Below are positions 8,576-12,441 of a stretch of DNA of 64,000 nt, in pieces. The position numbers and the translations under genes were made by a program. Under the pieces are notes generated by a model that was given only the letters and a program-made list of their open reading frames with translations, had not been told where the DNA came from and did no database searches. Origin of the DNA: Actinomycetota bacterium (GTDB taxonomy: Bacteria > Actinomycetota > Actinomycetes > Mycobacteriales > HKI-0501). Within the stretch, counting starts at the first letter, position 1. Each line of letters starts with the position of its first letter. The DNA lies in NCBI GenBank assembly GCA_030840805.1, contig JAVEDU010000096.1, forward strand, positions 1-64,000, in the 5' to 3' direction.

Positions 8576-9420
8576 GACTGTTCGATGCTGTCCCGCTGGG
8601 CCGACTGGCGGCGTTCCGCACGCTCGTCTACCTGTTCGTGCCGATCGACCTGCTGCTCACCACGAACTGGGTCCTCCAGCACAAGGACGTCCCCGGCGAC
8701 CTCTACCTGCCGCTGCTCCTCGGGCGGGTCCTGCCGCTGCCGACGCCCACGTACGCGCTCACGGTGGGGATCTTCGCCGCCCTGCTGGTCGCCAGCGTGG
8801 TCGCGGCCACCGGCCGGGCGCCGCGCCTGCTCGGGACCGCGGTGTTCCTCCTGTACCTCGAGTGGATGGTCATCGCGATGTCGTACGGGAAGGTGGACCA
8901 CGACCGGTTCGGCTTCCTCGTCGCGCTCGCCGTGCTGCCGACCGTCGGGCGGGCCCGCTGGGGTGACCTCACCCGGTCCGAGGCCGCGGGGTGGGCGCTG
9001 CGGGCGACCCAGTTCGCCGTCGTGGCCACGTACTTCTTCGCGGCCTGGGCCAAGCTCCGGTTCGGCGGGCTGGACTGGCTCACCGGTGCCACGCTCACCC
9101 GCGCCGTGCTGCGCCGGGGAACGTTCCTGTCCGACTGGGTGGTGGACTACCCCGGGCTGCTCGTCGGCTTCCAGTTCTTCATCGTCGCGTTCGAGCTGAC
9201 CTCGCCGGTGGTGCTGTTCCTCGCGTACCGCTGGCAGCAGCGGGCCATCGGCGCGCTCTACGCCTTCCACCTGATGACGTACGCGGCGATCACGATCAGC
9301 TTCCTGCCGCACTGCGTGGCGATGGCGTCGTTCCTGCCGCTGGAGAAGGTCCGGCCGCTGGTGTGGCTCAGCCGGTACCGCGCAGCCGATCCCGCTCCGC
9401 CTGCGGCAGCGCGCACATAG
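8572..9420 (+). CDS. HTTM-domain (VKD carboxylase-like) membrane protein
   Basis: This 282-residue polytopic membrane protein has about seven helices. The pattern resembles the HTTM domain found in vitamin-K-dependent gamma-carboxylases and many bacterial relatives: RTLVYLFVPIDLL at the start, LEWMVIAMSYGKVDHDRFGFLVAL, a central FFAAWAKLRFGGLDWLTG, and FQFFIVAFELTSPVVLFL. The KLRFGG region is the characteristic block. Start is GTG at 8572, coupled to the preceding gene. Its last 53 bases overlap the convergent DCC oxidoreductase gene, a family often found beside HTTM proteins. Confidence 0.82.
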   Translation: MRLFDAVPLGRLAAFRTLVYLFVPIDLLLTTNWVLQHKDVPGDLYLPLLLGRVLPLPTPTYALTVGIFAALLVASVVAATGRAPRLLGTAVFLLYLEWMVIAMSYGKVDHDRFGFLVALAVLPTVGRARWGDLTRSEAAGWALRATQFAVVATYFFAAWAKLRFGGLDWLTGATLTRAVLRRGTFLSDWVVDYPGLLVGFQFFIVAFELTSPVVLFLAYRWQQRAIGALYAFHLMTYAAITISFLPHCVAMASFLPLEKVRPLVWLSRYRAADPAPPAAART

Positions 9421-9751
9421 CCGTACCGCCGGGCAGCCTGTCCCGGTGGCGGGAGATCAGCCGGTACGCCGGCCACGCGGCGGCCAGCACCGGGCGCAGG
9501 AGGAGCAGGCGGCCGAGCACCCGCCAGTAGGAGCCGGCCGAGACGAGCAGGTCCCCGATCGCCTCGGGGCCCGCGGTCGTCCGGGCCCCGACCCACTGGA
9601 CGGCCTCCTCGGCCTCGGCCCGGGTGAGGCCGAGTGCCGCGAGGTCGGCGAACTGCCACGGGACGACCTCCGCGGGCGTCGGGATACGGCGCTCGATGAA
9701 CCGCGCGCAGGTCGAGCAGAACGCGCAGTCACCGTCGAAGACGAAGGTCAT
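9368..9751 (-). CDS. DCC-family thiol-disulphide oxidoreductase (DUF393)
   Basis: This 127-residue protein begins with the family signature FDGDCAFCSTCARF, giving the DCC motif plus a CxxC-like pair. Later it carries the family's SAGSYWRVLGRL and PAYRLISRHRDRL blocks. Members are predicted thioredoxin-fold redox proteins. The coding region overlaps the convergent HTTM gene by 53 bases. Upstream it overlaps the SUFU gene by four bases (ATGA). HTTM and DCC are also fused or adjacent in other bacteria, so a joint membrane redox role is likely but unproven. Confidence 0.88.
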   Translation of the reverse strand: MTFVFDGDCAFCSTCARFIERRIPTPAEVVPWQFADLAALGLTRAEAEEAVQWVGARTTAGPEAIGDLLVSAGSYWRVLGRLLLLRPVLAAAWPAYRLISRHRDRLPGGTAMCALPQAERDRLRGTG

Positions 9752-10230: not shown

Positions 10231-11232
10231 CTAGGTCGCGGCCACCGCGAGGACGGCGGGCCGGGTCTCCCCGGCCACCTCGGTCAGCCCGACCACCCGG
10301 CGCACCGGCGCGCACGTCGCCTCGGTGGCACGGCAGGTGAGCTGCCGGCGTACCGCGGACTCCCCGTGCTCGACCAGGACCCTGAACCGCCGGTCCCGGA
10401 CGTCGAGCACGACCGCGGTGCACGCGCCGTCCGGCGTGACGTCCCGGGTCGCGAGGTCCGCCGTCCCGCGCGCGTCCAGGTGCATCCGGACGTGGTGCTC
10501 GGCGGCCTGCACGGCGTCCGGCGTACCGGCCCGGCCCCGGAAATGCGGCAGCACGATCTCGCCCCGGGCGTACGCGGCGGCGACCTCGGGTCCGGAGGCG
10601 GGGTCGAGCCGGCCGAAGTACAGACCGTCGGGGAAGCAGACGGCGCTGGCGGCGAACCGGTCCCCACCGAGATGCGTGGTCTCCCACGCGGCGGCGTGGT
10701 CGCGGGCGATGGCCGCGGCGACCGGACGCCCGAACTCTGCGCAGCACGCGTCCCGCCGCCCGTGCGTGCAGACGAGGAACACCGGCCCGGCGACCGTCTC
10801 CCCGAAGCCCGGCCGGCGACCGGCGGCGACCGCGGCGACGTCCAGGGCGGCGAGCTCCGCGAGGTCGGCGATCTCGCGGCCCTCGACCCACGGCCGCTCG
10901 GTGTTCACGACGTAGATCTGGTGGGGGCTGACGCGGCGTCGCCTGGCCGGGCGGCGGATCAGCTGCACCCGGATGCCGGCGGCCTCGGCGCGGGCGAGGA
11001 CCGGGCTGAGCTGCGCGGGCTGGAGCGGCCAGGGGCCGGGGTGCTCGACGAGGAGCCAACGGGTGGTGCCGGCGGGGGCGGTCCCGGCGAGCGGCTCACC
11101 GAGCCGGCGGGCGACGGTGGAGCAGCCGACCCGCCCCGGCGCCCGGGGCGTGGTGTCGTCGGGCGGGGTGTCCCCGGTGACGATGCTGTCGTCGGTGGCG
11201 CAGACGTCGTCCGCAGACGGGCTCGTCAGCAC
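10231..11232 (-). CDS. Sucrase/ferredoxin-like protein
   Basis: This 333-residue member of the sucrase/ferredoxin-like family has a thioredoxin-fold [2Fe-2S] type. It shows CSTVARRLGEPLAGTA at the N-terminus, WLLVEHPGPWP, and the cluster motif VCTHGRRDACCAEFGRPVA followed by TTHLGGDRFAA. Enzymatic activity is unproven despite the name. Two tandem GTG codons could start it (11235 and 11232). The second is seven bases from a GAGGAGG site and was chosen. It is the first gene of the SUFU-DCC operon and is divergent from the LexA-boxed radical SAM gene. Confidence 0.88.
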   Translation of the reverse strand: MLTSPSADDVCATDDSIVTGDTPPDDTTPRAPGRVGCSTVARRLGEPLAGTAPAGTTRWLLVEHPGPWPLQPAQLSPVLARAEAAGIRVQLIRRPARRRRVSPHQIYVVNTERPWVEGREIADLAELAALDVAAVAAGRRPGFGETVAGPVFLVCTHGRRDACCAEFGRPVAAAIARDHAAAWETTHLGGDRFAASAVCFPDGLYFGRLDPASGPEVAAAYARGEIVLPHFRGRAGTPDAVQAAEHHVRMHLDARGTADLATRDVTPDGACTAVVLDVRDRRFRVLVEHGESAVRRQLTCRATEATCAPVRRVVGLTEVAGETRPAVLAVAAT

Positions 11233-11350
11233 CACGCGACCTCCTCGACGCCGGGAGGGGAGCCTAACCCACACGACGGTGCCGGGGAGGTCGAGCCGAT
11301 CCCCCGCCCGGCCGTGGACCACCTCCCCACGTGCGGAGATGGACATCCGA

Positions 11351-11366
11351 TCGAACATGTGTTCGA
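11351..11366 (+). promoter_or_regulatory. LexA (SOS) box
   Basis: TCGAACATGTGTTCGA is a perfect match to the LexA box of mycobacteria and relatives (TCGAAC, four bases, GTTCGA). It lies 34 bases upstream of the radical SAM start at 11401, within the divergent intergenic region. It therefore probably puts the radical SAM gene under DNA-damage control. Confidence 0.85.
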
Positions 11367-11400
11367 CTGTTTCCGACCTTGGCGGACGGAGGTGACCGGC

Positions 11401-12441
11401 ATGCGGTGGGACGCCCAGCGGCTCGACGCCGACCCCGGCGAGGACGCGGCCCCGGCCCTGCCGATGCCGATCCGCGGGGCATTCGAGCGTACGTTCGACA
11501 CCCCGGAGTTCCGCGGCGTGACGTTCTACGAGATCCGCGCGAAGTCGGTGCTCAACCGGGTGCCGGAGGCCTCGCAGGTCCCGTTCCGGTGGACGGTGAA
11601 CCCGTACCGCGGCTGCACCCACGCCTGCACCTACTGCTTCGCCCGGAAGACCCACACCTACCTCGACCTCGACGCCGGCCTGGACTTCGACAGCCGCATC
11701 GTCGTCAAGACCAACGCGGCCGAGGTGCTCCGGCGGGAGCTCACCTCCCAGCGCTGGGTGCGCGAGCACGTCGCGATGGGGACGAACGTCGACTGCTACC
11801 AGCGGGCCGAGGGCCGGTACGCCCTCATGCCGGGGATCATCGGGGCCCTGCGGGACGCCGGTACGCCGTTCTCGATCCTGACCAAGGGGACGCTGGTGCT
11901 GCGCGACCTGCCGCTGCTCACGGCCGCCGCGGGCGAGGCGGGCTTCAGCGCGAACGTGTCGGTCGGCGCCCTCGACCGGGCGCTGTGGCGCACCGTGGAG
12001 GCCGGGACCCCGAGCCCCCAGGCGCGGCTCCGGGTCGTCTCCACGTTCGCCGAGGCGGGTATCCGGTGCGGGGTCCTGATGGCGCCGGTCCTGCCGTACC
12101 TGTCCGACGGCGAGGAGGCCGTGGACGCGACGGTGGCGGCCGTCGCCGCCGCGGGCGCCACCCACGTCACCGGGATCACGCTGCACCTGCGCCCGGGCGC
12201 GAGGGAGTGGTTCATGACGTGGCTGGCGCGCGAGCATCCCGAGCTGGTCGGCCCGTACCGGCGCCTGTACGGGCGTGGCGCGTACGCCCCCGAGGAGTAC
12301 CGCCGCGAGGTGTCCGCCCGGATCACGGCCGCGGCCCGGCGGCACGGCCTCGACCGGCGCGACGCGGCGAACGGGCGGTGGATCGAGCCGGCCGGGGCCC
12401 CCGCCCAGCCCGCGCCGCCGGCCCAGCTCAGCCTGCTCTGA
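11401..12441 (+). CDS. Rv2578c-family radical SAM protein (SplB-like)
   Basis: This 346-residue radical SAM protein has the cluster motif in NPYRGCTHACTYCFAR (C-x3-C-x2-C) and the Rv2578c-family signature GTNVDCYQRAEGRY. Relatives are described as similar to spore photoproduct lyase, but the reaction is not established. ATG at 11401 follows a GGAGGTGA site. A perfect LexA box just upstream suggests induction by DNA damage. I recall the mycobacterial gene as LexA-linked too, which agrees. The C-terminus is proline- and alanine-rich and dispensable-looking. Confidence 0.9.
   Translation: MRWDAQRLDADPGEDAAPALPMPIRGAFERTFDTPEFRGVTFYEIRAKSVLNRVPEASQVPFRWTVNPYRGCTHACTYCFARKTHTYLDLDAGLDFDSRIVVKTNAAEVLRRELTSQRWVREHVAMGTNVDCYQRAEGRYALMPGIIGALRDAGTPFSILTKGTLVLRDLPLLTAAAGEAGFSANVSVGALDRALWRTVEAGTPSPQARLRVVSTFAEAGIRCGVLMAPVLPYLSDGEEAVDATVAAVAAAGATHVTGITLHLRPGAREWFMTWLAREHPELVGPYRRLYGRGAYAPEEYRREVSARITAAARRHGLDRRDAANGRWIEPAGAPAQPAPPAQLSLL

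Follow-up and report, generated by a model that had tools for sequence, protein, structure and literature searches.

Genes that keep a LexA box throughout a phylum are typically lexA, recA and genes of DNA repair. Rv2578c of Mycobacterium tuberculosis, the protein after which the NF038135 family of radical SAM proteins is named, is reportedly among the LexA targets listed by Davis 2002 and Smollett 2012. The main text of one study of M. tuberculosis describes a 'DNA repair photolyase', named there without a gene number, as RecA-dependent and induced by mitomycin C (PMC8151990); this is probably Rv2578c. An outbreak strain of the same species is described as carrying a deletion that disrupts Rv2578c and dhaA (PMC3031603), so the gene can evidently be lost there. 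The gene vnz_31145 ('Radical SAM protein') of Streptomyces venezuelae is given as 19.97-fold up with mitomycin C and as belonging to the LexA ChIP-seq set; its LexA box is printed as TCGACCGTTCGCTC and the authors propose a role in UV-damage repair (PMC9380542). A Streptomyces member of the family is described elsewhere as a phage attachment gene, with its repair role called speculative (PMC12924846). SOS control of a gene named 'splB' is predicted in alpha- and betaproteobacteria (PMC3323433), and we take this 'splB' to be the PA0069 family, to which the Rv2578c family is related. LexA control of the Rv2578c family is therefore partly published already, and the open-licence literature yielded no paper on a family-wide LexA link, nor one on Rv2578c and LexA or PA0069 and LexA.

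Here we describe a member of the Rv2578c family in the window, that is, the whole stretch of 64,000 nucleotides that was analysed from an actinobacterium of the order Mycobacteriales. We read it, with a probability of roughly 0.6, as an SOS gene that stands alone and encodes a radical SAM enzyme which has the predicted fold of spore photoproduct lyase (SPL) and acts on damaged nucleic acid by a chemistry unlike that of SPL. The features on which this reading draws are as follows.

10231..11235, reverse strand: divergent sucrase/ferredoxin-like gene, PF06999 match; the GTG start at 11235 is our reading.
11351..11366, no strand: LexA box TCGAACATGTGTTCGA, palindromic operator; exact match, with a box of the same type in 184 of 188 relatives.
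11365..11370, forward strand: GACTGT, which shares its first two bases with the box and may be a -10 element, as the TAnnnT pattern of relatives suggests.
11388..11392, forward strand: GGAGG, likely ribosome-binding site, read from the sequence.
11401..12441, forward strand: Rv2578c-family radical SAM gene, 346 aa; NF038135 at 517.5 bits (cut-off 430), and PF04055.
11614..11637, forward strand: CxxxCxxC cluster motif, residues 72-79; C72, C76 and C79 are invariant in 65 aligned sequences.

The LexA box in the window

The preliminary description had placed a perfect LexA box 34 bases before the start codon, and this is confirmed: TCGAACATGTGTTCGA agrees with TCGAACN4GTTCGA at 12 of 12 bases (0/12 mismatches), is the sole exact match in the window and is separated by 34 b from the ATG at 11401. 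A further site with one mismatch lies within the radical SAM coding sequence (11483-11498). At the matching position a site with at most one mismatch occurs in none of 116 relatives and one with two mismatches in four, so we rejected it as a second LexA box and treat it as a coincidence of codons.

A sigma-70 scan found no promoter at the radical SAM promoter region. In 60 of 90 promoters with a box ending in TA, this TA is also the beginning of a TAnnnT motif (the other 95 boxes end differently), and LexA would then cover the -10 element. GACTGT may be the window's equivalent of the overlapped element.

Conservation across Actinomycetota

The comparison covered 203 loci, made up of 80 named contigs (of 569, the best 80 were taken), 30 loci that a search of 61 genomes gave, 22 more from 296 genomes sampled across the phylum, in which listed matches under about 290 bits were mostly left out, and 71 fetched stretches. 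Removal of the window's own gene and of 14 remote or below-cut-off rows leaves a set of 188; these 14 are L199-L207, nine matches that score under 300 bits, and L214-L218, five matches from the same order that fall below the cut-off. A promoter was scored as carrying the box if a site with no more than 2 mismatches in 12, or with the exact core GAACN4GTTC, lay in the 200 b before the matched start.

By this test the box is present in 184 of the 188 Actinomycetota relatives (23 perfect), which include many close kin, Streptomyces above all, and are not independent events. The background rate, taken from 200 b windows of flanking DNA from the 80 named contigs, is 59 in 4,670, five of them with the exact core. 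The box-bearing members span 30 family codes by a hand count. Three of the four misses (L041, L079 and L146) have sites with 3 mismatches at -24, and the fourth (L165) has a duplicated gene start with TCGAACATGTGTTCTA before the first copy.

The exact core alone gives 58/80, 24/36, 18/22 and 49/50 in four sets, counting the window's own gene and omitting one locus with short upstream DNA (L152). The corresponding controls are 0 in each set for the reversed motif, 0, 0, 0 and 1 for windows inside the gene, and 0 to 0.23% for shuffles. Streptomyces, where 27 of 30 genomes have a Rv2578c-family gene over the cut-off, mostly carries GGGAACATGTGTTCTA and similar boxes near -46; 16 further Streptomyces promoters have the exact core in 15 cases and a site with 2 mismatches in the remaining one.

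The core occurs in one of the five same-order matches below the cut-off, being absent from L214-L216 and L218 (two of f8, the second copy of f12 and one of f2), and in one of the nine matches under 300 bits (L199). The PA0069-like genes of family f32 (L200-L205) are without the exact core; L205 has a site with 2 mismatches. A lexA match was found in 14 of 16 genomes checked, and lexA-like genes in all six f32 genomes that were checked. One genome (G066) has the box, at L148, and no lexA match, perhaps owing to an assembly gap, and another (G009) has neither.

The f32 group, which belongs to the deeper actinobacteria, seems to use a different type of LexA site. A site resembling CAAACN4GTTTG seemingly precedes the f32 lexA-like genes (L246-L251, judged by eye), some of which are present in several copies. 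By eye, no such site was seen before the PA0069-like genes of f32, though L205 may have a degenerate one.

Agreement with published LexA targets

The 14-mer TCGACCGTTCGCTC printed for vnz_31145 has a single occurrence in the 8.22 Mb Streptomyces genome G362, on the reverse strand and 25-38 b before a Rv2578c-family gene. The recA box printed in the same text (PMC9380542) also occurs once in G362, before recA. As two printed boxes are each found once, G362 would be S. venezuelae or a very near relative, and vnz_31145 would be a member of the Rv2578c family. A single-strand pattern of the printed vnz_31145 box before an MRW start matched none of 392 Streptomyces genomes, because the box as printed sits on the other strand. 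Distances to the start are -61 as printed against -38 to -25 here for vnz_31145, and -162 as printed against -155 here for recA. About 20 b upstream of the printed TCGACCGTTCGCTC, at -58 in the same promoter of G362 (L275), lies the conserved GGGAACAGGTGTTCTA; it is the better LexA site, and the printed box is probably not the true operator.

Taken with the phylum-wide footprint, the published ChIP-seq and RNA-seq on a gene matched to the family give strong support to the LexA control and damage induction that had been suggested for this gene. We regard LexA control of the radical SAM gene as close to certain. Since the same switch precedes the gene in relatives across the actinobacteria, the Rv2578c-family enzyme very probably belongs to the DNA-damage response.

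Protein family and fold

The NF038135 match covers residues 1-318 of the window protein. An AlphaFold model built from 56 sequences (mean pLDDT 90.2, pTM 0.86) is nearest to SPL by Foldseek (E 3e-9, TM 0.59). VIA-align to SPL (PDB 4fhc and others) gives Z 19.8-20.2 and rmsd 4.6-5.0 over 274-281 residues, spanning 14-320, and the next entry after SPL has Z 15.2. When the family profile was compared with the PDB, SPL was the sole significant family (E 7e-5, next 0.02). The resemblance to SPL that the preliminary description had noted is thus borne out for the predicted fold.

Intein-like insertions are present in 29 loci (for example L097, L098, L101, L107, L108, L120, L146, L149 and L205), with 22 in the 73 loci L126-L198. 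All 29 lie at one place, between Tyr78 and Cys79, and close with HN, after which the protein reads CFAR; intein-bearing members have a model of their own in NCBIfam (NF038136). As the insert stands just before the third cluster cysteine, cluster binding would be impossible until its removal.

An SOS-induced enzyme need not be a repair enzyme, and this one could modify RNA, protein or a free nucleotide, for example in translation control or phage defence. The core fold is common to SuiB, PFL-activase, lipoyl synthase and viperin (Z about 14-15), and comparison of 26 of the 80 named loci gave no neighbour common across families, repair genes included. SPL nevertheless stands clearly above the others (Z about 20 against 15.2), and no other PDB family is significant by profile. 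We consider such a non-repair role unlikely, though it is the alternative to be taken most seriously.

A true SPL with the same cysteine and tyrosine chemistry would share the predicted fold. It would also agree with a minority of alignments (2 of 10 hhalign runs and one further alignment), which set SPL Cys141 on residue 132, a cysteine in the window protein, and Tyr99 on Tyr87. Most alignments (4 of 4 MAFFT runs, 6 of 10 hhalign runs and one further alignment) place Cys141 on Thr128 and Tyr99 on Phe80, and under this placing Asp144 falls on Asp131; the cysteine and tyrosine are unaligned in the other 2 of 10 hhalign runs. The Thr128 placing is favoured by a T-D-P run common to SPL-family proteins and the Rv2578c family.

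All 45 family rows have Thr at residue 128, and 44 have Phe at residue 80, with Leu in the other one; residue 132 is Cys in 11, the window protein included, and Pro in 32. Nine plasmid rows have Thr (5), Ala (3) or Ser (1) at residue 128 and Phe (5) or Tyr (4) at residue 80. The SPL model TIGR04070 gives no match to the window protein at E 0.001, against a score of 516.9 for a real splB. In 30 Streptomyces genomes no true SPL was found over the cut-off; ten have a weak SPL-like match near 100 bits. SPL-type chemistry is not supported, because neither placing puts a conserved cysteine at the position of the SPL catalytic cysteine, and we judge a true SPL to be very improbable.

Neighbouring genes

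The preliminary description had also raised the possibility that the divergent sucrase/ferredoxin-like gene is affected by the box and supplies a redox partner. Of 109 other loci, compared with flanks of 1.5 to 6 kb that are incomplete in some cases, a single one has such a gene nearby, so a redox-partner role is not supported; we rejected it as a conserved partner, and this neighbour is probably outside the system. The box might act on the divergent gene alone, or on the two genes together as a single SOS unit that includes a redox partner; their divergent arrangement and the distance of about 115 b from the box to the likely ferredoxin-like start accord with this. The box, however, stays with the radical SAM gene in relative after relative (184/188), unlike this neighbour, and we give either arrangement scant credence.

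The widest neighbour cluster in the 26 loci spans five labels and lies several kb away; many of the ORFs listed in the comparison are antisense shadows. In Micromonospora-type loci a gene for a DCC1-like thiol-disulphide oxidoreductase is directly divergent from the radical SAM gene, with a match in 16 loci (L019, L020, L028, L033, L034, L044, L053 and others). The window has a DCC1-like gene at 9368-9751, and two other genes lie between it and the radical SAM gene.

SOS regulon of the source genome

The 4.46 Mb assembly has four exact LexA boxes, where base composition predicts 0.06. Besides the one described here, the box in C71 precedes lexA, that in C86 precedes a small ORF and, after it, an imuA'-like ORF, and that in C63 precedes a small ORF without a name. 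The lexA gene (G000:C71:84602-85234) is identified by a family match of 250.8 bits, over the cut-off, and has three boxes upstream. One-mismatch boxes precede what appear to be recA, ruvC and a helicase gene of the uvrD/pcrA type; these names, and imuA'-like, are our reading of the translations. The window's genome has an ordinary actinobacterial SOS regulon, in which the radical SAM gene has one of the best operators.

The exact box of C63 lies just before the small ORF, which begins MRVRCRVDGREVVV (L002 / L259, G000:C63:69792). This ORF is possibly a further SOS gene.

Sites with up to 2 mismatches number seven in the window, against a shuffle mean of 2.28 and a shuffle maximum of 7. As 2 of 100 shuffles reach seven, such weak matches mean little by themselves. 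That the box before the radical SAM gene is likewise a chance match in a GC-rich window, where sites with up to 2 mismatches are common, can be dismissed given the number of exact boxes in the genome and the retention of the box in relatives.

Relatives in other phyla

The nearest sister family is PA0069 (NF033668), which the window protein matches at 228.2 bits, below the cut-off of 360. Relatives were matched in 70 plasmid records, of which 14 were compared. Ten of 11 alphaproteobacterial loci, of 2.3-2.7 kb each, contain exactly one GTTCN7GTTC on either strand. In eight of the 11, representing five genera, it lies 12-64 b before a candidate start, which is annotated in L222 and L223. In the remaining three the start could not be placed (L232), the site is about 400 b away (L227) or there is no site (L229). 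In Aeromonas caviae, CTGTATATATAAACAG stands 15 b upstream of an ATG of its copy. We take GTTCN7GTTC and the Aeromonas-type site to be the LexA operators of their groups. None of the tested LexA-box patterns precedes the copies of Legionella adelaidensis and Gemmatirosa; Legionella is presumably without lexA.

Among genes of the SPL family itself, no LexA-type box was found within 200 b upstream in five cases (L233-L237, five of seven matched records). One of these (L234) is second in an operon, so they amount to four fair tests.

Proposed function and comparison with known systems

The preferred reading, repair of damaged nucleic acid under SOS control, would work as follows. In undamaged cells LexA would bind the box, abutting or overlapping the promoter, and keep the gene silent. 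The formation of RecA filaments on damaged DNA would lead LexA to cleave itself, and the gene would be transcribed. The enzyme would then split SAM on its [4Fe-4S] cluster to give a 5'-deoxyadenosyl radical, which would most likely be used on a DNA lesion or a damaged nucleotide. Either the lesion or the quenching of the radical should differ from spore photoproduct repair, because no cysteine is conserved across the family where SPL has its hydrogen donor. It is reasonable to propose, as the preliminary description did, that the enzyme acts on DNA or nucleotides, and action on damaged nucleic acid in particular seems somewhat better than an even prospect.

The presence of LexA control across phyla makes a repair reaction not yet assigned to an enzyme the best bet. 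A radical SAM enzyme whose box is conserved in the manner of lexA and recA points to such a reaction, perhaps a direct reversal of the lesion, in the phylum to which mycobacteria and antibiotic producers belong. More tentatively, and with a chance that we put a little short of even, the Rv2578c/PA0069 branch may be an overlooked core SOS enzyme of bacteria, one that repairs DNA damage of a kind different from the spore photoproduct through a radical chemistry in which the SPL cysteine has no part. LexA control of this branch would have been kept or regained through at least three operator types (GAACN4GTTC, GTTCN7GTTC and CTGTN8ACAG).

Among the closest known systems, M. tuberculosis Rv2578c has the window protein as a member of its family. 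The PA0069 family resembles the Rv2578c family in having the LexA box of its own group upstream in several proteobacteria, and differs in the type of that box. SPL (SplB) shares with the window protein the predicted fold, the CxxxCxxC motif and the Asp of the Cys141 motif (D144 to D131), but where SPL has its catalytic Cys141 and relay Tyr99, the Rv2578c family has Thr and Phe in most alignments.
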